From Saccharomycopsis phalli (Eukaryota; Ascomycota; Saccharomycetes; Ascoideales; Saccharomycopsidaceae): 64,000 nucleotides of DNA. Location of the stretch: NCBI GenBank assembly GCA_020342235.1, contig CP073212.1, positions 1,922,001 to 1,986,000 on the forward strand. Direction: 5' to 3'. The position numbers were made by a program, and so were the translations under genes. The stretch's first letter is position 1. Every line of letters starts with the position of its first letter. Positions 1 through 60,508 of the stretch are shown in pieces. Below the pieces are notes generated by a model. The model had not been told where the DNA came from and did not search any database. It was given only the letters and a program-made list of their open reading frames with translations.

Positions 1-3000
1 CGACGAGCAGGAAATGCAGGGCATCTACGTTAACGGGAAACGGCTCCAAGACTCGGAGGACCAGAAGCAAAACTTTATTGACTTGCTTCAGTCGATCGAG
101 ATCGAGTCGGTCTTGGTGAAGCAGCTTCGTGATTCACTTGGAATTGATGCCCACACTGCCAAGAATTTCATCAGTGAATACGCCAGGCTCTCGGCAGTGC
201 AACTCACCACGTCTCTGGAACGGTACGATCTCCGTAACGTGTCGTCGGTGGTGTACTTGAACGACTTGGAAAAGGACGAGGCGTATGCGCACTTTACTAC
301 TGATAAGCTGGCCTGGAAGAAGCCACAGCTTCCGCAGTACAAGGAAAACGTGTTGGATGTGGTATTTGCAGTGGCTTTGTCTGATTTCGACGTCATTGAC
401 GACATTCTCAAGATCGTGCACTTGGTTTTTGCCCAGAAAATGCCGCACCGCTTGGCGATTCTCCCAATCACAAAGCCCCTCGAGACATACAAGGAGATCA
501 CGGTTTCCATTGGCGGAAAATCAAAGACCCTCAGTCCGGAAGAACACCGGCAATTGGACCAGTACCTTGCGGACGATCTCCACCATGTGGCTCGGAACCA
601 GGGAGTGGACTGGGTTCTGTTTTTGAACAACCTCCAAAAGGAGTACCTTGGCAAGGTGTTTTCCCGGAAAAGCAAGCCGCCACACGTTCACCTCGATGGA
701 ATTGAGCAGTTCAACATCAAGGACAACTATGTTGTGGTGGATGGTGTCTTTGGGGCAATGGGCGACTCGTGGCGGCAATTTATCGGCGAGAGATTGCAAA
801 ACGACATCAAGTACATCTCGCAAAACATCGACGGCGTGAAAGATGGCGAGAAAGTCGCCGATCTTCTTTATAAAGACGCACTTGATGTGCGAAACTTGGT
901 GATCAATCCCGACAATGAGGACATCCAGTATCAGCAAGTGACGCCAGAGCTTCTTGGGAAGTTGAGCAAGCACAAGAATACGCTTGTCTTCTCCAACGAA
1001 GTAGGTGCCGACCAAGAACCTCGGATCTACACGTTCTACACCATGATGTTGGCCGGTGACTTTGGCGGTCACGTGACCCAGAAGCAGGCGGTGGAGATGT
1101 TTGAGGCGGAGATTGAGGGGTTGAAGCAGGGCAACCGGACGTATTTGATCAAGTACCGGTTGGTTGACCGGGGCCAGGGTCATGTCATTAAGAAATTGCG
1201 TGGGTTTCTTACCCAGAAGGTGCCATTGATTGATCGGCTTGAGGAAGCCGTCGAATATTTGCGGGAATTGCAAAACGAACCCGAGAAATTGGGCAGCAAT
1301 GCGGTTCTGGACGTTCTTGATTCGGCTGGAATCCATGGCAACGTGTTGTCGCTCAACTCACGTGCGGTGCCGCTTGGCCCACAGCACTATATTGCGTCAC
1401 GGGAATTTGACACCTTGGTGAAGTTTGAGTCGCGGGGCCGGTTGTTCCAGTTGATCCAGCAGATTGGCTACTCTGTGCGTGAAAATGTGACCTCCCTGTT
1501 GGATCGCTACGACTGGTCAGAGTCGTTGTTTTCCGTGTTGACAGCAAGTTACCATGCCGACAGTTTGCGCAGCAGAATGCAGTTGGAGATCTTGCAGATG
1601 GACGGGGCCTCTTTTGAGGTGAATCCCAGCAACGACACGTTGGTCAATGTGGTTGCCATTCTCAATCCAATCGACGAGCAGTCGCAGCGTGTGACTAGCT
1701 GGTTGGTGGCTCTTGAACAGCTGGGAATAGCCACGATCCGGGTGTTGTTTACCCCGAAACTGGGTCTTTCTGAGGTGCCAATCAAGCGGTTTTACCAGGG
1801 GCTTTATGTTCCGCGAGTCGAGTTCAAGGACGGCAAAGTGGACGAGTCACACTACCGTGTGGTTCTTGGCAATCTCCCAGAGACGACGCTCTTTACTTTG
1901 GACACGGATCTTCCTTATTCGTGGGTGGCTCATGCTCGGAAGTCGCAGTATGATCTCGACAACATCAAGCTTGATTTGACCGCCGACCGTCGCATCGAGG
2001 CAGTGTACGAGCTCAGCAACATCATCATTGAGGGGTACTCCACGATCGAAAACACATATGGCGGCCCAGTGGGGTGCCAGTTGGAGTTGTATCACGACAA
2101 GAAGGTGTATGCTGATACCAGTGTCATGGCGATTCTTGGATACTTCCAATTGAAGGCCGGGCCAGGAGTGTGGCAGTTGAAAATCAAGAGCGACACTCCA
2201 TCTTCCACCGTGTATTCTCTTCCAGAAACTCAAGTGTCAGTGCTTGATTTATCCGGCCTGGTGGTGCGGCCACAATTCACTATAAACCCTGGCCAAACCA
2301 GTCTTGCGGATGTCCAAGAAAAGAAGGGTGTGCTTTCGTGGTTCAAGCAAGAGAAGAAACAGGCGGATATCAACATCTTTGCCGTTGCATCGGGCCACTT
2401 GTACGAGCGGCTTTTGAGCATCATGACCGCAAGTGTTCGCAACCACACCGAGCATACGGTCAAGTTCTGGTTGATTGACAACTACATGTCAGCCAACTTC
2501 CGGGCGTTTTTGCCTGACTTGGCCAAGAAGTACAACTTTGAGTATGAGTTGATCAACTACAGATGGCCGTACTGGCTCAGAGACCAGCGCGAGAAGCAGC
2601 GCACGATCTGGGGATACAAGATCTTGTTTTTGGACGTGTTATTTCCTCAGGACTTGGACAAGGTGATTTTTGTGGACGCAGACCAGATCATCCGTACCGA
2701 TTTGCAAGAGTTGAATGACGTGGACTTGCAAGGTGCGCCTTATGGCTACACGCCAATGTGCGACTCGAGAAAGGAGATGGAGGGCTTCCGTTTCTGGAAA
2801 AAGGGCTACTGGAAGCAGATCTTGGGACAGGGCGGCTTGAAATACCATATCAGCGCCTTGTACGTTGTGGACTTGAAGCAGTTCCGCAAGATGACAGCCG
2901 GTGATATTTTGCGGCACCATTATCAGCAGTTGAGCCAGGACCCGGCGTCGTTGAGCAACTTGGACCAGGACTTGCCAAATAACTTGCAGTACCGCTTGAA

Positions 3001-3337
3001 GATCCACTCGTTGGATCAGGACTGGTTGTGGTGCGAGACGTGGTGTTCAGATGAGAGCTTGTCGACAGCCAAGACGATTGATTTGTGCAACAATCCGTTG
3101 ACCAAGGAGCCGAAATTGGACCGTGCGCGTCGGCAGATTCCCGAGTGGAACTTCTATGACGAGGAGATTGGCCAGTTGATGAAGCAGAGCGAGGAGACCC
3201 GGGCGAAAGAACAGGAGCAACTCCAGGAGCAAGATATCACTGAGTCGGTGGGTGAGGAGCAGATGGATGATGGGGAGTCTGAGTATGGATTTGACGACTT
3301 TGGGGCTGACGAGGCTCAAGTGCATGATGAATTGTGA
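1..3337 (+). CDS. UDP-glucose:glycoprotein glucosyltransferase (UGGT/Kre5 family), 5' end outside window
   Basis: C-terminal 1,107+ residues of an ER-lumenal UGGT, the folding sensor that re-glucosylates misfolded N-glycoproteins. The frame is open to the left edge, so the true start lies upstream; the first ATG at 14 is internal. The N-terminal two-thirds resembles the thioredoxin-like/beta-sandwich sensor region. The last ~290 residues form the GT24 glucosyltransferase domain, with the metal/UDP-sugar motif FVDADQI near residue 889 (counted from the ATG at 14), then GAPYGYTPMCDSRKEMEGFR, KYHISALYVVDL, SNLDQDLPNN and WLWCETWC. These are strongly conserved in active UGGTs. The protein ends in HDEL, the yeast ER-retrieval signal. 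S. cerevisiae Kre5 belongs to this family but is diverged in the catalytic domain; this one looks catalytically competent (inference). Confidence 0.95.
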   Translation, partial: DEQEMQGIYVNGKRLQDSEDQKQNFIDLLQSIEIESVLVKQLRDSLGIDAHTAKNFISEYARLSAVQLTTSLERYDLRNVSSVVYLNDLEKDEAYAHFTTDKLAWKKPQLPQYKENVLDVVFAVALSDFDVIDDILKIVHLVFAQKMPHRLAILPITKPLETYKEITVSIGGKSKTLSPEEHRQLDQYLADDLHHVARNQGVDWVLFLNNLQKEYLGKVFSRKSKPPHVHLDGIEQFNIKDNYVVVDGVFGAMGDSWRQFIGERLQNDIKYISQNIDGVKDGEKVADLLYKDALDVRNLVINPDNEDIQYQQVTPELLGKLSKHKNTLVFSNEVGADQEPRIYTFYTMMLAGDFGGHVTQKQAVEMFEAEIEGLKQGNRTYLIKYRLVDRGQGHVIKKLRGFLTQKVPLIDRLEEAVEYLRELQNEPEKLGSNAVLDVLDSAGIHGNVLSLNSRAVPLGPQHYIASREFDTLVKFESRGRLFQLIQQIGYSVRENVTSLLDRYDWSESLFSVLTASYHADSLRSRMQLEILQMDGASFEVNPSNDTLVNVVAILNPIDEQSQRVTSWLVALEQLGIATIRVLFTPKLGLSEVPIKRFYQGLYVPRVEFKDGKVDESHYRVVLGNLPETTLFTLDTDLPYSWVAHARKSQYDLDNIKLDLTADRRIEAVYELSNIIIEGYSTIENTYGGPVGCQLELYHDKKVYADTSVMAILGYFQLKAGPGVWQLKIKSDTPSSTVYSLPETQVSVLDLSGLVVRPQFTINPGQTSLADVQEKKGVLSWFKQEKKQADINIFAVASGHLYERLLSIMTASVRNHTEHTVKFWLIDNYMSANFRAFLPDLAKKYNFEYELINYRWPYWLRDQREKQRTIWGYKILFLDVLFPQDLDKVIFVDADQIIRTDLQELNDVDLQGAPYGYTPMCDSRKEMEGFRFWKKGYWKQILGQGGLKYHISALYVVDLKQFRKMTAGDILRHHYQQLSQDPASLSNLDQDLPNNLQYRLKIHSLDQDWLWCETWCSDESLSTAKTIDLCNNPLTKEPKLDRARRQIPEWNFYDEEIGQLMKQSEETRAKEQEQLQEQDITESVGEEQMDDGESEYGFDDFGADEAQVHDEL

Positions 3338-3453: not shown

Positions 3454-3627
3454 GAAAAGGCCGTCAATGGCAAATAATATGTAGTTTGAGTGATTTGGCA
3501 ACTGTCTACAAATGTTTAATAACAATGGCATCAAGACATTGTTAGACATTGCTTGGCAAAGTAGATTCAGCTTGGCTTTCGGTATGAATACGAGTTATAA
3601 AAAGGATATAAAGGAAATGGAAATAAA

Positions 3628-3700
3628 AGGCAATGTCAATATAAAGGCAATGTCAATATAAAGGCAATGTCAATATAAAGACAATGTCAATATAAAGGCA
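3628..3700. repeat. 18-bp tandem repeat, 4 copies
   Basis: Four units of AGGCAATGTCAATATAAA with one variant base in the fourth. No coding potential. Confidence 0.9.
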
Positions 3701-3743
3701 CTCTGATAATTTCCAGTGAGTACGACAATGACTGTATTACGAA

Positions 3744-4054
3744 GGGTTGTCACGTTTGGCGCAGTTGTTCATCCCGCCTGATAGGAAGGCACCATCACGG
3801 GTTCAATTCGATGCTTAGTGACAACCCTACGGCAGGCTACCGTGCTAGTACCCGCGGCGAAAACTCACAGCCTGCCCCATACACCAATTACCAGCACAAC
3901 TACTAAAATCCCGCTTGGAGTTTTTCTACCCACTTGAAGGGTTTTCTCTGAGCAACACATATAGCGGCGCCGTCCCTAGTCTTAGACGGTGAAATATCAA
4001 TCTCTCTGGAGCCGAAGTATAGCTATAGCCTTAAATAAAATAATACAATACAAT
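3744..4054 (+). mobile_element. Full-length tRNA-derived SINE (family S1) with 13-bp target-site duplication
   Basis: A 311-bp element flanked by the perfect direct repeat ACTGTATTACGAA (3731-3743 and 4055-4067). The first 84 bp (3744-3827) look tRNA-derived: GGGTTGTCAC at the start pairs perfectly with GTGACAACCC at 3818-3827. A Pol III A-box-like TGGCGCAGTTGT lies at 3757-3768 and a B-box-like GGTTCAATTC at 3800-3809, about 31 bp apart as in tRNA genes. The anticodon and T stems do not pair well, so it is not a working tRNA. The body contains a GGCAGGCT/AGCCTGCC hairpin and the family core around TAGCGGCGCCGTCC. It ends in TAGCTATAGCC and an A-rich tail of AATAC units. Structure and duplication are read directly from sequence; LINE-dependent mobility is inferred. 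Confidence 0.85.
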
Positions 4055-4422
4055 ACTGTATTACGAAAATCCAGAAAACGGCAACCCACGAATCATGGCA
4101 TTCCACATTCTGCATCCACATTGACATGGAGCCGTGTACTGAACCATGGATCACAGTGGGTGCATAATCTGCTCATGAGTCAAGGACACGGAATATGTTT
4201 GAGGCATGGATGAACCACTATCGTCAGAGCTAGTATAACTTATAGTTTACAATTTACAACTCACTTGATAACTTGAACTTGTCAACTTATATGTCCTAGA
4301 TATCACAGACAAAAGGACATGCAAACACTACATGTAAGACAGAAAATAGATTACCATCCAATTAAATACCGAAATCATAAAAACGTAAAAATAGTGGCGT
4401 GCCTCGAACAAAAGGCATGCCG

Positions 4423-5589
4423 TCACTTGTGCCGACTGTGGATCCGCAAATGCTGCATGCAGTTGTCCTTTCTGGAGAAACGAGAGTGGCATCCTGGGAA
4501 TGTGCAGCTGAATTTCTTTTCGCCGCTGTGGATCTTCTTGTGTCGCGTGAGATGCCCTGCGGTCTTGAACCGTTTATCACAGATCTTGCACTGGAATTTA
4601 CGGTGCTTGAACTGGTCGGGATTCGAGATGAACCGCAGGGTGAAGAAGCCGTTGTCGGCACTGTTGGTGAGAATGTCGAAATTGAGGAGCTTGGCCTCGG
4701 TCTTGTGCAATTTTAGCTTCAATGGGCGGAAGTCGAGCACCTTGGTCAGCAGCTCAAACGAGAACGCTTCCAGCTCCTTGACCGGGGAAATGGGGCTCGT
4801 TGGAGTCGACTGGCGGCTGGGAGTCGACGGGCTAGGAGTCACTGGTGGATTGGCGGGGGTTTGGGTCCTGGAGCTTGGGGTTTGCGGCCGCACAAAGTGA
4901 GGAGGCTGAAGGACTTGCTGGTTGGCTTGGGAAGTGTAAATGGGAAAGCGCCGAATTGGTGAAGAGTGAATTGGCGAAGAGTGAACTGGCGAAGAGTGAA
5001 TTGATGCCGAGCGAATTGATGCCGAGCGAATTGGCGTAGTGCGAATTGGCGTAGTGCGAATTGGCGTAGTGCGAATTGGCGTAGTGCGAATTGGCGCAGT
5101 ACGAATTGAAGGACGAGCCAAAGGGCGAACGGAAGAACGTACTGAAGTGCAAATTGGCGACCGCATTGGCAAGGTGCGAATCGACGACCGAACCGATGAT
5201 CCAACTGGCAAAGATCGAAACGAGTGGTTCAAAGGCTGCAAGCCACTGCTCAAAGACGATTGAAACGGAGCTGGTAGTAAGGGGCCCAGAGGCAGGTGTA
5301 TGCTTCTTGGAGTTTGGAATTGCACATCGTGAGGCTTTGTATCCCAAGTCGCCTTGTTCTTGTGGTTCAGTATAGCCTGTAGTGGGGTGCTGGGTCTATC
5401 AAAGGGCGTGATTGGCCGAGCAAGTACTTGCCTATTCACCTCAGCAGCAGTCGTTGACTGGAACTCCGAAAATACTGGGAAGCTGTTTGGTGAATCTTCG
5501 TTGTTCAAGAGCGCATTTATCTTCAACGACCGGCGCGGCGTCTCAAGAGGTTCCAAGGGCACGCGTGTAAGCTGTGAAAGGGTAGTCAT
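4423..5589 (-). CDS. NRG1: C2H2 zinc-finger transcription factor, Nrg1/Nrg2-like repressor
   Basis: 388 residues from the ATG at 5589; a longer upstream reading is open but lacks family features. Two C2H2 fingers occupy the extreme C terminus (about residues 333-385). The spacing and residues CKICDKRF.TAGHLTRH..IH and GCHSRFSRKDNC.QH are typical of the Nrg repressors of glucose-repressed, stress and filamentation genes. The rest is Ser/Pro/Thr-rich and probably disordered. Residues ~151-213 are a five-residue tandem repeat (IRTTP, IRSAS, IHSSP types), encoded by 15-bp DNA repeats at 4950-5135. The nuclear repressor role comes from family knowledge. Other Nrg/Mig-type fingers are possible, so the exact paralogue is uncertain. 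Confidence 0.75.
   Translation of the reverse strand: MTTLSQLTRVPLEPLETPRRSLKINALLNNEDSPNSFPVFSEFQSTTAAEVNRQVLARPITPFDRPSTPLQAILNHKNKATWDTKPHDVQFQTPRSIHLPLGPLLPAPFQSSLSSGLQPLNHSFRSLPVGSSVRSSIRTLPMRSPICTSVRSSVRPLARPSIRTAPIRTTPIRTTPIRTTPIRTTPIRSASIRSASIHSSPVHSSPIHSSPIRRFPIYTSQANQQVLQPPHFVRPQTPSSRTQTPANPPVTPSPSTPSRQSTPTSPISPVKELEAFSFELLTKVLDFRPLKLKLHKTEAKLLNFDILTNSADNGFFTLRFISNPDQFKHRKFQCKICDKRFKTAGHLTRHKKIHSGEKKFSCTFPGCHSRFSRKDNCMQHLRIHSRHK
4950..5135. repeat. 15-bp coding minisatellite inside the NRG1-like gene
   Basis: About ten to twelve imperfect 15-bp units such as GAATTGGCGTAGTGC. They encode the pentapeptide repeat. Units toward 5040-5095 are nearly identical, suggesting recent expansion; length may vary between strains. 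Confidence 0.85.
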
Positions 5590-6098
5590 ATAGATCGTGG
5601 AGCAATTATCCAGATATATATTGGTATCCTCAATTTGCCATGAGTTATTAATAGCATGAGGCATTCCGCAAGGCCATCGCAAGGCATCCTACATTTCGGT
5701 ACCGGCACCCAGGAGAAAACGCCAAAGCCGTCTATAGCAAATTTTAACGTCACATGAAAGCTACAATAGAACAACTAGAATTTATAGTAGCGTATTCTTA
5801 GTAGCGTTCTTAAAATTCCACACACAGTACACTCTTTCAATTGCACACTATCACTCTTTCAATTGCATAGTATCACTCTTGCAATTGCATAGTATCACTG
5901 TTACAACCATCTTCAGAACAGTATGCCTCATAAAATCATGCCTCACAATAACCCGTAATGATCCATGTTATAATCATATTTCCTTACAATTTGCGCGTCT
6001 CATGTGGACGTCTCGCGTCTCTGGCTTCAGCCTTGTGGAACTCAAGTTGCATGGCATTTTGCATGCAAAATTTTAAAATTATATCGCTAGCTATATAA

Positions 6099-10593: not shown

Positions 10594-10847
10594 TGTGATG
10601 TGGCTCTGGGTGCTCGTGGGACTGGTCCGATTACTTGCACAGCCTTGTATATTGGTGTACAGACTGGTTGGCTTGTGTAGCAGATTATAGCAGACTTTAA
10701 TATTATTGCGTTGTATTTGTATTGGTGTTGGATGTATGGCTGAGAATGGGCATGTCATGGGTGTCATGGACAGTTTCATAGGACGGTGTCATGATCCAGT
10801 TTCATCCAGTGTTATTCAATTGTCATCCAGTGTTATTCAATTGTATG

Positions 10848-11070
10848 TATGTATTATTATATTTATGGCTATAGCTATACTATGCTCCAGAGAGTATACT
10901 TTACCGTCCAAGACTAGAGACGGCGCCGCTATGTTGCTCAGAGAAAACCCTTTAAATGGGTAGAAAAACTCCAAATGGGATTTTTAATAATTCTACTGAT
11001 AATTTATACGTGGGGCAGGCTCTGAGCTTTCGCCTCGGGTACTAGCACAGTAGCCTGCCGTAAGGTTGAT
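10848..11070 (-). mobile_element. S1 SINE copy, 5'-truncated
   Basis: It matches the copy at 3744-4054 in reverse orientation: tail side at 10848, core at 10870-10935, GGGCAGGCT hairpin region at 11010-11060. It ends just short of the tRNA-like head, near TCAACCTTACGG in element orientation. Both flanks carry CATCCAGT repeats, which hides any target duplication. Confidence 0.85.
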
Positions 11071-35566: not shown

Positions 35567-36603
35567 TTGATGGAAGTGCAATGTATTGGCTTGGGGTGGT
35601 TTTTAATATTGCTAGAGATGTTCACCAAAGTGTTGCCAATGGGAATTTAAATTGAAATGATAGACTGAATAATTGCTAGATTTGGTACGAGAAAACTACA
35701 TAGTAGCTGTAATATAAACTAGAATGACATGGTAAATGGCTAAAAGTTTGCCAAGTCAAGCTATCCTTGGAGACTTGTTTTTACAAAAGGGCGACAGGTA
35801 TAGTAGTAATAGTATGTAGTTTAGAGTCATTTATAGTTTTTTACTTATCAAGCTGGACATTTTCATGCCAATGGGTCTTTCTAGACACCAAGTTTAGTGG
35901 TGCCGTCCTTGGTATATAGACTGAAGCATCAATCTCGCCTTTTAGGGTACATAATATAGTTGTAGAAGTAATATACTATTATCATTGCCCTTGCAATGTC
36001 CATTACTCTATATATTTGTCAGCATTGGCTGAAGGTTTACATCTGTTGCAGTTTTCTTTGACAACTACATGGCTGTACAGGTAGACGGCAAATTATAATC
36101 TCGGGAGTCTAGTATAGATATAGCCTTGGACAAAAGTGTTAATATTATATCCATATCCACTCGCAAGACCAATCTGGAAGTTTTTCTGCCATCAAGGGTT
36201 TTCTTTCGACACTCAACATAGCGGAGCTACTCATAGTTTCAGCAGTGAAATCTTCTCTGGAGCCTAGTATAGCTATAGCCTTGAACATGATATTATGATG
36301 GTAATATAGTAACTAGGATACGATATAGAAAAATGGCTATTATGTATTCGCTTGACAATTTAAAAGGCTGACTACTTGAGAAAAGACATACTGTGAAAGG
36401 TACTGTGAAAGGAAAAGACATGCTGTGAAAGGAAATGGACCCAACTAGTCCCATTTGTTTGTCACACACAACAAAGCAAAGGAAAAGAGACAAATTGTAG
36501 GATAAACCTTTAGTCATTACAATGTGCCTCGGCCTGATATTCTGTCACGTGACCCGCGTAGTGATGGCAATCTACACGTGATTGACTTTCACGATTACAC
36601 AAC
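35567..36603. other. Spacer with several S1 SINE fragments
   Basis: Plus-strand S1 fragments at about 35880-35990, 36045-36145 and 36150-36299 (listed separately). Two CACGTG motifs (TCACGTGACC near 36545, and near 36572) lie within 70 bp upstream of the HPC2 ATG. Confidence 0.6.
35880..36299 (+). mobile_element. Three diverged S1 SINE fragments in a row
   Basis: Each keeps part of the S1 core: GTGGTGCCGTCCTTGG (35880-35990); AGACGGCAAATTATAATCTC followed by AGTATAGATATAGCCTT (36045-36145); and GGGTTTTCTTTCGACACTCA followed by GGAGCCTAGTATAGCTATAG (36150-36299). They lack heads and clear target duplications, so they are older. Confidence 0.7.
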
Positions 36604-44204: not shown

Positions 44205-44642
44205 ATTCACAGCCCTGTAGAGGGTCAACTACAATTGTCATATTTTACAGCCTTTTGACTACATTGGCATAATACATTATAGCTCTACATGAGAATCAAC
44301 TATGATTGTCATATCATAATACAGTCTACAGCCTTACGAGGTCAACTACAATTGATATAATACATTACACATCACACAATGAGAATCAACTACAATTGAC
44401 ATTGTTATAATATACATCATAGCCTTACGAGGTCAACTACACTTGGCATAATACATAACACAGAGCTACATGATAATCAACTACAATTGTTGTATCATAA
44501 TACATTATACATCAAACAATGAGAATCAACTATAGTTGACATTGCCATTCTACAGCTTACGAGGTTAACTACAATATCATTATCATTCTACGCCTTTTCA
44601 CTAAAATTGATAATACATTATAGCTTTACATGAGAATTGACG
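44205..44642. repeat. Imperfect satellite, block 1
   Basis: Alternating units built on (GAGAATCAACTACAATTG) and (CCTTACGAGGTCAACTACA), joined by CATAATACATTATA-like segments. Higher-order period is about 100-120 bp and units are diverged. Confidence 0.8.
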
Positions 44643-44904
44643 GATAGCCAGACTTTGGCCCTGCAAGGACGAAAAAAGACCAAATAAACACGAGGATGAC
44701 CAAGGAATGACAAAAATTAGCGGATACTGATGAGAGTACTCTTTCAGCCCACTATAAAATTCTACACGAAACGGATTCACCGGTGGTTACAACTGTCAAA
44801 GATAACTCTTACTAGCCAAGGCGTTGGCTAGTCCAAAGAAAATTGTAGCCTCAGGAAACAATAGGAAAAGACTCTGTAGCTCCTTCTGAGCCATATCTTC
44901 ACCA

Positions 44905-45036
44905 GTTGAAGATCAAGTTGAAAATTTATCCCATTGTAAGGGCTTCTCTCGACTCAAAATTAGCGGCGCCGTCCTTTGTTTTTTATACGGTGAAATATCA
45001 ATTCCACCCTCTGGAGGAGTGTAGTAATATAAAATA
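44905..45036 (+). mobile_element. S1 SINE copy, 5'-truncated (plus strand)
   Basis: Contains GGGCTTCTCTCGACTCAAA, TAGCGGCGCCGTCCTTTG, ACGGTGAAATATCAATT and CTCTGGAGGAGTGTAGTA, then a short TAAAATA tail. It abuts a minus-strand copy tail to tail. Confidence 0.75.
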
Positions 45037-45227
45037 TTTATTCAAGGGTGTGGCTATACTAGGATCCCAGAGGAGATTTATAATTTGCCGTCTACGACTG
45101 AGGACGGTGCTGCTATGTAGTCGTCGAAAGAAAACTCTGCGACAGAGATGAACATTTGACTAGGGCTTGTAAATATGTAAGGTAGTGAGCATTGGAGGGG
45201 CAATGAGCTTTTGCTTAGATCTTTAGA
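45037..45227 (-). mobile_element. S1 SINE copy (minus strand), same subfamily as 60244-60508
   Basis: Matches the reverse of the 60244-60508 copy through TATTCAAGGG, CCCAGAGGAGATTTATA, GCCGTCTACGACTGAGGACG, TAGTCGTCGAAAG and GTAAGGTAGTGAGCATT, ending CTAGATCTTTAGAG-like. Confidence 0.8.
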
Positions 45228-45249
45228 GTAGCCTAGTATAGCTATAGAA

Positions 45250-45456
45250 GTATTGTATTGTATTATTTTATTCAAGGCTATAGCTCTACTTTGCTCCAGA
45301 GATGTATACTTCACCGTCAAAGACTAGGGACGGTGTCGCTATACATGTTGCTTAGAGAAAACCTTTAAATGGGTAGAAAAACTCCAGGTGATATTTGAGT
45401 AGTTATACTGGTAGTTTGTATGAGACAGGCTGTGAGCTTTCGCTTCGGGTACTACA
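45250..45456 (-). mobile_element. S1 SINE copy (minus strand), same subfamily as 3744-4054
   Basis: Starts at the tail (TATTGTATTATTTTATTCAAG), then TTCACCGTCAAAGACTAGGG, AAACCTTTAAATGGGTAGAA and AGACAGGCTGTGAGCTTTCG, and stops at CGGGTACTA. The tRNA-like head is missing. A short plus-strand 3' fragment (45228-45249) lies between this and the preceding copy. Confidence 0.8.
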
Positions 45457-45810: not shown

Positions 45811-48800
45811 CTACATCATGCTGACCACCGAGGTTCCGTCCTGGAACCGCGTGCGAAAGACGCTATTTGCATTGGCAAACATGCCCTCCTTCAAGCTCAC
45901 CACGATAAACTGGGACCCCTTGAAGCGGGTCTTGATCAAGTGGCCGATGTTCTGGGTGTGGCTCAAGTCCAACGCGGCGTCGACCTCGTCCAAGATGTAC
46001 ATGGGCGCTGGTTTGAACTGGAGCAAGGCCATGATCAAGCTGAGGGCGACCAAGGAGCGCTGGCCGCCCGACAACTCGACCAAGCTCTCCTTCCAGACCT
46101 TGCCGAGCATGACCTTGACCTCGAGCCCCTCGGTGATGTCGCGGTTTTCCGGGACAACCAACTTGGCAAATGCCCCGGGCAACAAGTCGGCGAAGATCTT
46201 GCCAAAGTCCAGGTTGACCTTCTGCCAGGTCTTGACCAAGGTGTCGCGCTTGTACTCGTCCAAGGTGCGGATGGTCTCCTCGATCTTGGACTTGTCCTTC
46301 TCGATGGTGGTGATCATGGTGCGCAACGCGGTCTCCTTCTTCTCGACGTTGTCGATCATGCTCATGATGTTCGAGTTGACCTTGCGCCGCATGCCCTGGA
46401 ACCGGCCGCGCAAGTACTCGATGCGCGTGCGGCTCGCCTCGATGTCGGCGCCGGGGTTCTGTGCCACGATTGTCCGCACAATGTTATCGTCGGAGATCCA
46501 CTCGTGCTCACGCACAAGCGCCTCGAGGTGTGCCTGCATCTTGCCCGAGCTAGCCTCGAGCTTCTCCAACTCGTGGCCCAACTTCTGGTTCTGCAACTTC
46601 TGCTGGTTCAACCGCCGCGTCTTGTCGTCGACCACCCGCTCAATGTCCGCAATCTCCTGGTTGATGCCGGCCACCGTCGCCTTTTCTTGCTCAATTGCCC
46701 GCACCAACTCGCCTGCCTCGCGGGTCTGTGCCGCCATCGTCGCGTCGATGCGCTCAATCTCCTGGCGATACTCCTCGGCGCTGGCGGCCGTCTCCTGGCG
46801 GCGCGTCTTCAACTCGTCCAAGTCGCCTGCCAACTTTTCAATCTCAAACTGCAACTCCTGGTGCTGCCGCACACTGCTGCCGAGCGACTGCTCGAGCGTC
46901 TCGACGCGCTGCTTGCTCTGGGCAATTTCCTGCTGCAACTGCTGCAACTTCGACCCCTTGTTGCGGTCAAACTCCGCCATGTCGGCTTCCGCCTGCGCCA
47001 ACTCCCGCCGCAACGCCGCCACCAGGGCCTCTGACTCGCGGATCGCGCCGCCAATCGTCTGTTGCTCGGCCACGTTGCCGTCGTGCTTCGTGAGAAGCTG
47101 CTGCGCGCCGTTGGTCGCGCGGTTCCGCACCGCCAACTCCAACGCATGCTGGTCCAAGCTCGCCTGTTTCTGCAAGCTCTGGTTCTCGCGGCCAATTGCT
47201 TCCTGCTCGCTGATCTGCTGGCGGAGCGCAGCCAACTCCTGGGTGCGTGTCTCCAACTCGCGACTGAGCTGGTTGTACTTCTGGATCGTCACCAACACCG
47301 ACGTGGTGTGCTTGCGGCTGCCTCCCGACAACGTTCCTTGCGGATCGTACACGTCGCCGTCGAGCGTCACGCTCCGCGCCCGGATCTTCGGGTTGAATGT
47401 GATCTCCTTTGATGTCTGTGGATCTCGGGTGACAAACACCGAGCCAAAGATGTACTCCATGGCCTTGGCGACGTCATGCTCATAGCCAATGAGATCCAAC
47501 GCAAGCTCGACGTTCCCCGGGCACAAGCTCTTGGCAAGGTCGGTGGTGCTTTTGCCAATGACGCGGGCTGCGATCTTGTTCAAGGGGATGATGGTGACCC
47601 GTTTGCGCAACTGCCCACGCTCCAACAACCGTGCGGCCGTGCGTTCGTTGTCGACGACCACGTTGTACAAACGGCCACCGGCACAGACCTCGAGTGCCGT
47701 CGCCGAGTCGAAGCGGCTCTTGTCCAAGGAAAACAACTTGGCGGCCACGCCCTTGATGCACTGGGGACTCACCTCATGGCGATTGTACTGCAACTCGACG
47801 GCGCTGACAGACCGTCGGAGCAGATCGACCTGGCTGCCGAGCTCGTAGACCTGCTGGCGGAGCTGCCGCTCCTGCTGCTGCAACTGGCCCAAGTGCTCGC
47901 GCAGGAACCCGGCCAGCTCCAACTTCCGCCGCGACGCGTCGCGCGCCTCGGTCAACGCGGCAATCTCGCCGTCGGCCCGCTGCACTTCGGCCCGTGCGCC
48001 AGCCAACTTCGCCGCGTCGCCAGCCAACTCCTGCTCGAGCCGCTGCTGCCTCAACTTCTGCTGCGCCATCTCCACCTCCCGCTCGGCAATCCGGTCCCGA
48101 ATCGCCTGCATCTGGCCCACGTACCCACCAGCTTTGCCCTTGGCGCTGATCCCGGTCTGCAACGACGCCAAAAGCTCCTCCTTGTCCCGGAGCTCCTGCT
48201 GCTGCTGCTGGAGCCGCTCCTGCGCCTCGGGACCTTCGCTGCGCTGCTGCTGCTCCTGTAACCGCGTAATCTCCTGCTCCAACTGCGCAAGGCTCCCTTC
48301 AATCTCCCGCCCCTGCGCCACGTCCTTGTCGCGGCTCTCCTGCTTCAACAGCTTCGCAGTCCCAAGCCGCACAAGCTCCTTGGACAACTCGGCCTCCTGC
48401 AGCTCCAAATCCCGCAACCGGCCGCCCAGCTTCGACTCGCGCTCCTTCTGCGCACGGATCTTGGCCAAGTCCTCGGCCAACGCCTGCAACTCGCTGCTGA
48501 GCCGGCCAATGTTCTCAGTCAAGCTGCGCACGTGCTCCCGGTCCTGGGCTAGCTGCTGCTCATACTGCTCGTGCTTGCGGGAGTAGCTCGAGTAGGTGTA
48601 CGCGTTGACAACGCGCAGCAAGCGGTCCAACTCGGTCTGGGTCTGCTGGAACTCGAGAAACGCCCGCTTCTCCTTGCGCAACTTGTCCAACTTCGGCTCG
48701 ATCTCCTCCAACAACAACGTCTTGATCTCGGTCAACTTGGTGTCCTTCTTGGCCATCGTCTTCACCGCCTTCTCCCGCCGGTCCTCAAAGAGCTTTGTGC

Positions 48801-49308
48801 CCGCCGCCTCCGCAATCAAGGCGAGAATCTGCGCCGGAGGCATGTTGAGCACCTTGGTGATCTTGCCCTGCATTATGAGAAAGTTCGGGTTGTTGATGTT
48901 CAATTGCACCGACTGGAACAACTGCAACACCGTCTGCTGCTGCGCCCGGTGGCCATTGATCAAATACTTGGACGTGCCCCCAAGCACAATCTGCCGCGTG
49001 ATCGAGATCTTGGGGTGCTCCTTGAACCCAATCGGCGACGTCTTCTTGTCCTGGTTATCAAACACTATCGTCACACTCGCCTTCGTCACCCCGGCCTGGC
49101 CCCGCTTGTATATCAAATCCTGGAGACTCGACGCCCGCACCGTCGACATGGACGAAATCCCAAGCACAAAGCAGATCGCATCGAGAATGTTCGACTTGCC
49201 CGACCCATTGAGTCCTGTGATTGCATTGAACTGCGCGTCCCAGCCAGAAATGACCGTCCGCGCAGCATACGACTTGAACCCATCTATGATGAGCTCCTCA
49301 ATCTTCAT
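45811..49308 (-). CDS. SMC2: Condensin ATPase Smc2
   Basis: 1,165 residues from the ATG at 49308 (MKIEELIIDGFKSYAART), matching Smc2 (1,170 in S. cerevisiae). The longer open frame upstream is translated ACATA repeats and is not used. N-terminal head: Walker A GLNGSGKSNILDAI near residue 32-45. Two long coiled coils flank a hinge (about 500-680, HEVSPQCIKGVAAKLFSL, YNVVVDNERTAARLLERG). C-terminal head: ABC signature VELSGGQRSLVALSL, Walker B PMYILDEVDAALD and the D-loop. The protein pairs with Smc4 in condensin, which compacts chromosomes in mitosis. It is convergent with the RRM gene across a satellite-filled spacer. Confidence 0.97.
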   Translation of the reverse strand: MKIEELIIDGFKSYAARTVISGWDAQFNAITGLNGSGKSNILDAICFVLGISSMSTVRASSLQDLIYKRGQAGVTKASVTIVFDNQDKKTSPIGFKEHPKISITRQIVLGGTSKYLINGHRAQQQTVLQLFQSVQLNINNPNFLIMQGKITKVLNMPPAQILALIAEAAGTKLFEDRREKAVKTMAKKDTKLTEIKTLLLEEIEPKLDKLRKEKRAFLEFQQTQTELDRLLRVVNAYTYSSYSRKHEQYEQQLAQDREHVRSLTENIGRLSSELQALAEDLAKIRAQKERESKLGGRLRDLELQEAELSKELVRLGTAKLLKQESRDKDVAQGREIEGSLAQLEQEITRLQEQQQRSEGPEAQERLQQQQQELRDKEELLASLQTGISAKGKAGGYVGQMQAIRDRIAEREVEMAQQKLRQQRLEQELAGDAAKLAGARAEVQRADGEIAALTEARDASRRKLELAGFLREHLGQLQQQERQLRQQVYELGSQVDLLRRSVSAVELQYNRHEVSPQCIKGVAAKLFSLDKSRFDSATALEVCAGGRLYNVVVDNERTAARLLERGQLRKRVTIIPLNKIAARVIGKSTTDLAKSLCPGNVELALDLIGYEHDVAKAMEYIFGSVFVTRDPQTSKEITFNPKIRARSVTLDGDVYDPQGTLSGGSRKHTTSVLVTIQKYNQLSRELETRTQELAALRQQISEQEAIGRENQSLQKQASLDQHALELAVRNRATNGAQQLLTKHDGNVAEQQTIGGAIRESEALVAALRRELAQAEADMAEFDRNKGSKLQQLQQEIAQSKQRVETLEQSLGSSVRQHQELQFEIEKLAGDLDELKTRRQETAASAEEYRQEIERIDATMAAQTREAGELVRAIEQEKATVAGINQEIADIERVVDDKTRRLNQQKLQNQKLGHELEKLEASSGKMQAHLEALVREHEWISDDNIVRTIVAQNPGADIEASRTRIEYLRGRFQGMRRKVNSNIMSMIDNVEKKETALRTMITTIEKDKSKIEETIRTLDEYKRDTLVKTWQKVNLDFGKIFADLLPGAFAKLVVPENRDITEGLEVKVMLGKVWKESLVELSGGQRSLVALSLIMALLQFKPAPMYILDEVDAALDLSHTQNIGHLIKTRFKGSQFIVVSLKEGMFANANSVFRTRFQDGTSVVSMM

Positions 49309-49379
49309 GTCTGTGTTTATGAAAAACCAAGGCCTCAACAACATCGGTTGGTGCACGGGTGTGTGTCTGGGTGTTTCAG

Positions 49380-49600
49380 CTCCAACAGCACAGCACAGCA
49401 TACATAACATACAACACAGCATACATAACATACAACACAACATACATAACATACAACACAACATACACAACATACATATACAATATACAACACAACATAC
49501 ATATACAATATACAACACAACATACATATACAATATACAACACAACACAACATACATATACAATATACAACACAACACAACATACATATATTTATAATAA
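49380..49600. repeat. ACATA-type repeat array in the SMC2 upstream region
   Basis: Two zones: CATACATAACATACAACACA units (49395-49465), then ACACAACATACATATACAAT units (49465-49590). They start about 70 bp upstream of the SMC2 ATG. Confidence 0.9.
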
Positions 49601-55037: not shown

Positions 55038-56865
55038 GATTTAATTCCTCCAGTACCAAGGTTGTTTAATTAAGTATGGTTTGCTAAATAAAAATTTTTC
55101 CTGACTCGGCCTCTCTGAGTCAGACCCACGTGAGGCACTGCAGCCCATTACAGTATCACTCAATCCCACTACATGTCTCTGCGCCAGATGGCATCCTCGC
55201 GTATTCCCACACGTGTATGCAACGTATTAGCTCACTATTGTTGTCTATTATTGACCATTATTGACTACTCTTGACCATTGATTTGCTTGATAGCTTGACT
55301 GCTTGACTTTTTGATAATCGACTTCACTTTTGGCCAACTTCTCGACGGAATTGTCCACCAGGAGTATATCCCAGGCTTTAAGCATCCTTGCAACGTCAAT
55401 GTTCAACTGGCAGTAGCCTAGTTTCTGCCCAACGGATTAAATGGCATGTGACTACATCCCAAGGCAATTACCATAGTAAAAGCCCAGTGGCTATTGTCTT
55501 TAGCCATTGGGCAACTTGTAATTATAGCTAGGCCGTGGCTTGTCTAGAGTCTGCCACCGTTTTTAAACAATCAAGTATTGTACTGATCAAAGGGTTTTCT
55601 TCAACAGCAATGCTGCCTCAGGATGTTCCTGAGTGAAAATATATCTGTCGAATCACCGTATTGCCGGAGACAATATATAGCTAAATACAAAAATAAATAT
55701 TATTATTATTATTATTGTACTGATTCAAGGGCCTTAACATCCGTCTGGTGGCATTTCTTCATCTTTGATTTATTCTCCTCATCTTTGATTTATCATTGAT
55801 TCTCCATGACTTTTCCCAGATTGTAATCGTCACAGGCATAAATGCAGGCATCTCGTACAAGAGTGGTCATGGTATAAAAACTACTCCTCAATTCAGGCAG
55901 GAAAAAAGGTTATATCAACTATAATTACAAAATACCTGCCTTCAAAGGCAATGATGAATTACATATTTCCAAGACACTCACCGTCGATTCACATGCAACT
56001 CGCCTATAACTGGGTAAAATTGTCAGAGCAAGCACTACTAACGACAACTATTCAAACCTTTGAATAGTCAATCAAATGAGTTTATCAGCACATGTCCTAG
56101 TTGCAAAATTATCCATTTTAAATAATGTAGATAGATTAATGCAAGTGAATCACCCTTTGCAGTCGCTATATTGGCACCACACACGGTTCTGTTTAATCAA
56201 GTACCACTCTAGTCATTTCACTCGTGATTCAACCCATGTAAACCAATTCAACCACACTGTATCATTCTTTTCTTTAGGCAGTGCTCAATGTTTTTACCAA
56301 GTGTCAAGCTCATGTAGCCACTCCAGTACACATGACAGTGCTCTACACAGCCTACCACACTATTGGTCTTTGATAAACACCAATGGAGAACATGGCAAAT
56401 TATCAATGGCTAGTCAGATATTAGCAGATGACCAATTATCAATGGCTAGCCATATATTAGCATAGCTATAAGGATCATGAGCCGATGCAGTGTTGCTGAT
56501 ATGGTCCATTGCTCATGCCCAGTTCTTGCAATTACCAGGCATTCCAAACTGCATCGTCATGAAACAGCACCGCTCAATTCTAATCATCAATCCAGGACAA
56601 GTGGGTGGCTCAAGGTTTCTCGGTGAAGATATTATCCGACCACTGTTTCCAGAGGCCAATGCCAAATGGGTATTGATTATTTTAATATGGCTACAATATG
56701 TTTCAATTGATTAAATTTGGTGGAATCTGTTTCAATTGATCAAACTTGGCTATATGCTTCCATTGATTAAACTTGGAGAATCCGTTTATACTACTCAACA
56801 CTCGTCTACATTTGTCTACACTTGCCTACATTTGCCTACACCTGCTAACAGTCTCATCCATTCAA
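55038..56865. other. Spacer between SHM2 and AGX1
   Basis: Includes an S2 copy with target duplication (55588-55712). The rest (55750-56860) has no recognised gene. A short TTATCAATGGCTAG(T/C)CA repeat lies near 56400-56455, and CTACA(C/T)TTGCCTACA repeats at 56808-56848. Confidence 0.6.
55588..55712 (+). mobile_element. S2 SINE-like copy, 5'-truncated, with 12-bp target-site duplication
   Basis: 125 bp flanked by TATTGTACTGAT (55576-55587 and 55713-55724). It contains CAAAGGGTTTTCTTCAACAG, GGATGTTCCTGAGTGAAAAT, GCCGGAGACAATATATAGCT and an (ATT)n tail. Truncation at GGGTTTTCT with an intact duplication is what LINE-type target-primed insertion produces. Confidence 0.88.
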
Positions 56866-60243: not shown

Positions 60244-60508
60244 ACGTTAGGAGGGCTACCGAGTTAGTACCTTGGGGAGGGGGTGGCTAAAGCCACCTCT
60301 AAAGATCTAGGCGAAAAACTCATTGCCCCTCTAATGCTCATTACCTTACATATTTAGAAGCTCTGGTCGAAAGTTTTTTATCTCTATTGCAGAGTTTGCT
60401 TTCGACGACTATATAGCGGCACCGTCCTTAGTCATAGACGGCAAAGTATAAATCTCCTCTGGGAGCCTAGTATAGCTATAGCCTTAAGTAAATATTATTA
60501 TTATTAAA
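60244..60508 (+). mobile_element. S1 SINE copy, 5'-truncated, with 12-bp target-site duplication
   Basis: 265 bp flanked by AAACTTCAATGG (60232-60243 and 60509-60520). It begins just after the tRNA-like head region (GGGCTACCGAGTTAGTACC aligns with GGCTACCGTGCTAGTACC of the full copy). It carries the core TATAGCGGCACCGTCCTTAG and ends GAGCCTAGTATAGCTATAGC with an AAGTAAATATTATTATT tail. The middle differs from the 3744 copy, marking a subfamily. Confidence 0.88.

Follow-up and report, generated by a model that had tools for sequence, protein, structure and literature searches.

LINE/SINE partnerships are well known in animals and plants. We did not find a report of one in a budding yeast, and within the portion of the literature on SINEs and LINEs in yeasts and fungi that was covered, no report of a Saccharomycotina SINE family was recognized. 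Budding yeasts do harbor LINEs. The Zorro elements of Candida albicans are L1-like LINEs, and we know of no SINE partner for them. L1-like elements of C. albicans are also cited in a Yarrowia lipolytica paper on Ylli, an EN-RT LINE with many truncated copies, a poly(A) end, and no target duplications identified (PMC5014426). It raises, as speculation, the idea that tRNA genes may have been dispersed by LINEs, and the available text of its LINE section describes no SINE family. The main text of a Saccharomycotina genome review contains none of the whole words SINE, non-LTR, Zorro, or Ylli (PMC5499181), and the available part of a survey of 625 fungal genomes makes no statement on yeast SINEs (PMC6416283). 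In the filamentous fungus Aspergillus fumigatus, AfuSINE2-1a has A and B boxes, a short simple-repeat end, and a 3' part that resembles the 3' UTR of the EN-RT LINE I-1_AF; the SINEs of this fungus have named tRNA parents and target duplications of 4–14 bp (PMC5063351). Stringent-type pairs, which include eel UnaL2, zebrafish ZfL2, and Tad1 in fungi, have a SINE/LINE 3' end and a stem-loop in common, and the stem-loop of UnaL2 and ZfL2 is experimentally essential for retrotransposition (PMC5135761).

The locus described here lies in the Saccharomycopsis phalli genome (14,148,124 bases, 8 contigs). The window, which is the whole 64-kb stretch of DNA analyzed, covers bases 1922001–1986000 of contig 1 and has a G+C content of 45.6%. 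An earlier note on this DNA had proposed a tRNA-derived SINE in a budding yeast. The host assignment is borne out by Smc2, encoded at 45811–49308 on the minus strand, for which the named proteins among the 120 matches listed (of 4457) are from Saccharomycotina. The highest named ones are Saccharomycopsis crataegensis, a member of Ascoideales (62%), and Wickerhamomyces ciferrii (55%), with Saccharomyces cerevisiae at 51%; the top match of all stands at 63%. UGGT gave no such placement. Saccharomycopsis schoenii was rejected as the host on base composition, its assembly having 33.9% G+C (PMC13148404). The CTG codon is rare in the Smc2 frame (45811–49587; 11 against 90 TTG), which would fit a CUG-reassigned clade.

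Results

Structure of the SINE1 element

Two open frames, 14–3337 (+) and 4423–5664 (−), converge on SINE1, which lies between their ends and is judged non-coding from the frame list, where no frame of at least 150 residues appears for it. A 17-bp tandem repeat of about five units (3609–3710) lies immediately upstream. The parts of the element are as follows.

3731–3743, no strand: target-site duplication, 5' copy, ACTGTATTACGAA, 13 of 13 bases the same as 4055–4067
3744–4054, plus: SINE1, full-length copy of 311 bp, with at least 46 genome matches, seven near full length
3744–3753, plus: 10-bp stem closing the head, 5' arm GGGTTGTCAC, from inverted repeat and fold
3757–3767, plus: candidate Pol III A box TGGCGCAGTTG, its first base at element position 14, no mismatches to the consensus
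3800–3810, plus: candidate Pol III B box GGTTCAATTCG, at element position 57, one mismatch, 43 bases after the A box
3818–3827, plus: 10-bp stem closing the head, 3' arm GTGACAACCC, from inverted repeat and fold
3913–3953, plus: hairpin 1, with covariation, a lower stem of 8 bp and an upper stem of 3 bp, common to SINEs and LINEs
3919–4039, plus: region in common with LINE 3' UTRs by BLAST
3921–3925, plus: T5 run followed by CT, a weak Pol III stop context in vitro (PMC5356446, PMC2253867)
3969–3990, plus: hairpin 2 (GCCGTC/GACGGT), 88.3% of alignment cells paired
4016–4039, plus: 24-base terminus AGTATAGCTATAGCCTTAAATAAA, the same in LINE-C copies
4040–4054, plus: AT-rich simple-repeat end, read directly from the letters
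4055–4067, no strand: target-site duplication, 3' copy, ACTGTATTACGAA, 13 of 13 bases the same as 3731–3743

The 13-bp target duplication, the 10-bp stem, the A and B boxes, and the AT-rich tail that the earlier note described are all present. The score of the 13-bp repeat was not reached by any of 300 random 5' flanks drawn from the flanks of copies. All 10 bp of the inverted repeat pair without mismatch, and this stem closes the head in its minimum-energy fold; the fold energy of the whole element is unremarkable (z −1.46). The boxes were scored against the consensus sequences TRGYNNARNNG (A box) and GGTTCRANNCC (B box). Such a pair of boxes also occurs once elsewhere in the window (minus strand), and the boxes by themselves therefore do not decide the matter. 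Positions 3744–4054 are a genuine SINE.

The head and its promoter type

The label tRNA-derived is not supported by the comparisons made, in which SINE1 gave no cloverleaf match and no tRNA parent was found. The Rfam tRNA model did not match the heads of SINE1 (E up to 1) or of two further families described below, SINE2 (E up to 5) and SINE3 (E up to 10). Weak matches to other Rfam models in the SINE2 and SINE3 head scans (sX2, SCARNA7, and CRISPR-DR56) were dismissed since they fell below gathering scores. Neither Rfam nor ARAGORN called a tRNA at SINE1 in the window, ARAGORN called none on the heads, and the places of the SINE1 and SINE2 heads did not overlap any tRNA place in a partial genome list (63 of 806 candidates scored). 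When the heads were compared with three tRNA genes, the best of the nine comparisons, SINE3 with one tRNA, was reached by 37 of 1000 shuffles. Relative to tRNA numbering, the 10-bp stem of SINE1 lies about 6 nt further out than the acceptor stem. The A box is near base 14 and the B box at 55–64 in all three families, with the first base of SINE3 uncertain. The head of SINE1 is related to that of SINE3 (none of 2000 shuffles scored as high), and the SINE2 head was not found to be related to either (284 and 389 of 2000 shuffles). The safe wording is that SINE1 is a SINE with a predicted tRNA-type (type 2) Pol III promoter.

Copies, truncations, and target duplications

The whole-genome search with SINE1 gave at least 46 matches, including the query, on seven of the eight contigs (40 of 267 candidates scored); this set is not purely SINE1, and some of its short members are LINE tails. 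Seven copies begin at base 1 or 2 and reach at least base 300; leaving out the query, they are 87–98% identical. The earlier note had staked its reading on other copies with a head and on target duplications, and both were found. The head alone occurs at 13 genome places, 10 of them at 95% identity or more. Three of these copies (L010, L011, and L015) share one 5' flank, with 198–200 of the last 200 bases identical, and are therefore duplicates of one insertion, which reduces the 13 places to 11. They lie near contig ends, match SINE1 only to base 201 or 171, and probably represent a subtelomeric duplication.

Target duplications were scored in the 28 tail-bearing copies. A repeat had to end no more than 4 bases from the 5' junction, recur after the tail, and contain no more than one mismatch; matches counted +1 and mismatches −2, and a score of 10 or more was called clear. 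Four copies that lack the 3' end (L010, L011, L015, and L018) were excluded. Clear duplications flank 12 of the 28 copies (L001, L002, L004, L005, L006, L007, L009, L012, L016, L021, L023, and L029). They are 11–17 bases long, three have one mismatch, and for none of these copies did more than 1 of 300 random flanks reach this level. Six of the seven full-length copies are flanked in this way; full-length L003 has a repeat of only 7 bp (p ~0.05). No clear duplication was detected by the flank repeat test in the other 16 copies, among which L020 scored 7 (p ~0.04). Six of the duplicated copies (L009, L012, L016, L021, L023, and L029) begin inside SINE1, which indicates that 5'-truncated insertions also duplicate their target. 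Two truncated copies lie in the window.

10840–11068, minus: 5'-truncated SINE1 copy, from base 79, found as a genome match
45252–45454, minus: 5'-truncated SINE1 copy, from base 103, adjoining nested LINE pieces, found as a genome match

The start falls at bases 59–79, within the 3' arm of the 10-bp stem or shortly ahead of it, in nine of the 46 matches, as would be expected if reverse transcription frequently halted there.

Candidate partner LINEs

The reverse transcriptase profile RVT_1 gave 91 genome matches. The 480-bp class is Ty3-like, as judged by eye from its frames; the 654-, 669-, and ~800-bp classes are LINE-like by length, and frames were read for the 654- and ~800-bp classes. Several elements among the Ty3-like L031–L048 are near-identical with long open frames (L037, L038, and L039 are 100% identical over their common part), and LTR elements may also be active. 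The LINEs were sorted into LINE-B (L049–L057), LINE-C (L058 and L059), and L060, a relative with 62% identity to LINE-C. An AP-like endonuclease (PF14529) and a reverse transcriptase (PF00078) both scored above cut-off in a single frame in L052, L059, and L060, the arrangement of APE-type LINEs. The LINE-B, LINE-C, and L060 products are taken as EN-RT proteins from these three scanned members. With regard to the named clades (I, Tad1, Jockey, and L1), database matches are distant (23–29%), and many of them carry RNase H. LINE-B includes four identical open frames of 1124 residues, with a fifth at 99.9%. LINEs have therefore jumped recently, in line with the active or recently active LINE that the earlier note had expected.

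That note also asked for a LINE with the SINE tail at its 3' end, and L058, L059, and L060 show such a match in their 3' UTRs. BLAST aligned the sequence after their stop codons with SINE1 bases 176–296 at 84% over 83 bases (L058), 78% over 124 (L059), and 76% over 130 (L060). SINE1 and a LINE of the same genome thus have a 3' end in common, as in a stringent-type pair. MAFFT also lines up LINE-C GGCTACCG..TAGTACC with the SINE1 body upstream of the BLAST-matched tail, as judged by eye. The 24-base terminus occurs at 162 genome places with two or fewer mismatches, compared to none for the reversed control, and the exact 24-mer lies 1.29–1.32 kb past eight reverse transcriptase matches of the 800-bp class. 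A different tail, called D-type, follows L060 and also lies about 1.3 kb past 669-bp-class matches. Because the SINE1 tail is only 76–84% identical to the three LINEs compared, the LINE that moves SINE1 may lie outside those read. LINE-B was considered as the partner and rejected because BLAST found no match between it and SINE1; by eye, a T5-A hairpin of similar appearance is present in the LINE-B tail, the final 40 bases of which resemble those of LINE-C (87.5%). A fragment with the partner type of tail is present in the window.

60244–60506, plus: LINE-C 3' UTR fragment, partner type of tail, 94.7% identical to the L059 tail

Other LINE remnants were seen in the window. Nested insertions at 44634–45454 consist of a D-type LINE piece (44869–45026 and 45230–45252) split by an inverted LINE-C piece (45022–45232), and a truncated SINE1 follows directly after them. 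About three degenerate LINE/SINE tails stand in tandem at 35869–36299. A 128-bp LINE-B tail fragment at 55588–55715 is 100% identical to LINE-B and is probably a very recent truncated insertion.

A covarying hairpin common to SINEs and LINEs

Thirty tails (17 SINE1, 1 SINE2, and 12 LINE) were hand-picked from 64 distinct matches for diversity and completeness and aligned. RNAalifold, unprompted, returned seven pairs of the hairpin 1 lower stem, four of which are changed on both sides in some sequence. The named hairpin structure pairs in 89.6% of 509 cells, compared to 34–47% for slid structures. Both sides are changed in 47 cells, whereas shuffles average 19.6 and none of 500 was as high. Two of the five covariation measures were not above shuffles: double-change pairs (6; 118 of 500) and further pair types (20; 271 of 500). 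Few independent events are involved; most separate SINE1 from LINE, and SINE2 adds one pair. The stem-loop of a stringent-type pair is thus seen here through covariation that comes from few independent events.

SINE2, SINE3, and mosaic tails

SINE2 was found in L090 at about 1314–1640, with candidate boxes at bases 14 (A box, TGGCCGAATTG) and 64 (B box, AGTTCGACTCC), followed by a D-type tail. Five copies (query included) are 99–100% identical and five are 83–90% identical; for the C6 copy at 1540382, the match to the head query is confined to its final 31 bases. SINE3 lies in L002 at 2828–3084 on the minus strand and has four copies at 77–100%, query included. Its boxes fall at bases 14 (A) and 55 (B) if its first base is 3084, and one base later if it is 3085; two of the three other copies begin matching one base earlier (3085) and the third begins three bases earlier. 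Judged from their sequences, SINE2 and SINE3 are further SINE families with the layout of SINE1. The tail of SINE2 is a mosaic. Its last 46 alignment columns are identical to LINE-D L091 (46 of 46), and its inner hairpin is identical to an old SINE1 copy, L008 (25 of 25 columns), compared to 22 of 25 for LINE-D. The SINE2 hairpin would either have passed between SINEs or have arisen twice.

Context of the T-runs

Runs of T stop Pol III. In vitro, with the Saccharomyces cerevisiae system, T5 followed by CT is a weak stop and T5 followed by A or G is a strong one (PMC5356446), and the CT effect is gone at T6 (PMC2253867). Both papers cite Braglia et al. 2005. An in vivo yeast study cited in PMC5356446 found read-through to be uncorrelated with the sequence right after the stop. 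A literature search on SINEs and Pol III stops returned no paper.

The runs were tallied in the 64 distinct tail matches, with identical ones, L095 among them, merged. Classification by the upstream part assigned 24 of the 64 to SINE1. Seven of these are runless, and all 17 that retain a five-T run read T5-CT (17/17); T5-CT is a second run in L013, L017 has an additional T5-GA, and L010 is a partial match. The one SINE2 tail and SINE3 also read T5-CT. In LINE tails with a T-run, the next base is A in 17 of 17 cases, 10 of which were classed as LINE by their upstream part and 7 of which are distinct D-type stretches. Seven LINE-classed tails are runless, and two of them (L079 and L080) are SINE-like in sequence. 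Six LINE-B tails read T5-A. Fifteen tails were unclassed, and T5-CT was seen there in L025, L028, L002:2960 (which is SINE3), and window position 36164; the other runs in this group are T5 followed by AT, CA, AC, or GT, and one T6 followed by AA. A second T-run, in the loop of hairpin 2, reads T6-A in 39 of 46 motif places, T4-G in five SINE2 copies, T4-CT in one place, and T5-CA in one. The five T4-G copies stem from a single expansion and were counted as a single event; five older SINE2 copies lie outside the 46 places. The T-run contrast fits selection for Pol III read-through, with few independent events behind it.

Discussion

The genome contains a multicopy SINE1 family with a head, a LINE-like tail, target duplications, and truncated copies, along with open LINE frames. 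SINE1 is very probably a non-autonomous retrotransposon whose RNA, made by Pol III, ends in a copy of a LINE 3' UTR and is moved by the EN-RT of a LINE with a C-type tail. We infer Pol III transcription, recognition of the tail by the LINE protein, and selection for read-through from sequence features. In the life cycle we propose, Pol III would start at or near the G-rich first base of SINE1, 13 bases upstream of the A box, and would read through the weak T5-CT stop, where some polymerase could still halt. The transcript would end in the LINE 3' UTR copy, in which the alignment shows both hairpins (1 and 2) and the terminus TATAGCTATAG..TAAATAAA. The EN-RT protein of a C-type-tail LINE, the presumed enzyme for this RNA, would recognize the tail, nick the target DNA, and reverse-transcribe the SINE1 RNA from its 3' end. 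Products of the kind expected are seen as target duplications of 11–17 bp, variable simple-repeat ends, and 5'-truncated copies. SINE2 would use the D-type LINE tail.

There is next to no chance that these repeats are merely the 5'-truncated 3' ends of LINEs. The SINE1 tail is LINE-like, truncated LINE tails are abundant in the window and the loci, and many SINE1 matches start at bases 59–103, all of which speak for such an origin. However, the same head stands at 13 places (11 with duplicates counted once), and the sequence upstream of the L058, L059, and L060 tails is ORF2, not a SINE head. The full-length copies start at the same base, six of seven with target duplications, and the A and B boxes occupy the same place in three families. 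A truncated-LINE origin is ruled out for the copies with a head. Pol II could instead make the SINE1 RNA from neighboring promoters or within longer RNAs, leaving the A and B boxes as relics, and the internal T5 and T4 runs that precede the SINE1 tail speak for this. We consider it very improbable, since both boxes are kept in three families with nearly the same A box offset, the 5' end is constant as an internal promoter predicts, and the T-run context is weak in the SINEs and strong in the LINEs.

The explanation of the T-run contrast is more evenly contested. SINEs that take on a LINE tail would meet a conflict, in that the hairpin required by the LINE protein holds Pol III stop signals. 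Our model is that the SINE families edited these stops, from a T-run followed by A to T5-CT and from T6-A to T4-G, and kept the hairpin, while the remaining tail tracks the active LINE, so that the hairpin and the 3' end would be exchangeable modules. We regard this model as equally balanced between right and wrong. T5-CT may instead be a matter of ancestry, a single SINE hairpin having spread among families by descent or recombination for reasons that have nothing to do with Pol III. Such a single origin is possible from the SINE2 mosaic, in which the inner hairpin equals an old SINE1 copy (25/25) and the 3' end equals LINE-D, and it gains from the relatedness of the SINE1 and SINE3 heads and from the unclassed degenerate tail at window 36164, which reads T5-CT and might be a LINE. 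Against it, LINE tails of two types that have the run have A next in 17 of 17, and the second stop, T6-A at 39 of 46 places, has become T4-G in five near-identical SINE2 copies. That two distinct changes point the same way is suggestive, but the events are few, and we give shared ancestry somewhat less than an even chance. Through the T-run contrast, the practical matter of how a SINE can carry a LINE tail without stopping Pol III becomes a simple in vitro test. With its three SINE families, tail-matched LINEs, and recent jumps, this compact yeast genome would bring the LINE/SINE partnership within reach of yeast genetics.

The S. phalli elements can be set beside the known systems. SINE1 is like AfuSINE2-1a in its A and B boxes, short simple-repeat end, and 3' part resembling the 3' UTR of an EN-RT LINE, and target duplications are likewise present in the SINE1 family (PMC5063351). 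The two fungi differ in that no tRNA parent is visible for the S. phalli SINEs, and in that the set found here comprises three families with two types of tail and a hairpin that covaries. The S. phalli LINEs resemble Ylli as budding-yeast EN-RT LINEs with many truncated copies, whereas Ylli has a poly(A) end and no target duplications identified (PMC5014426). As in UnaL2, ZfL2, and Tad1, the SINE and LINE have a 3' end and a stem-loop in common (PMC5135761). Hairpin 1 of SINE1 lies about 100–140 bases from the 3' end, with hairpin 2 nearer, and the likeness to these stringent-type pairs is drawn at the level of layout.
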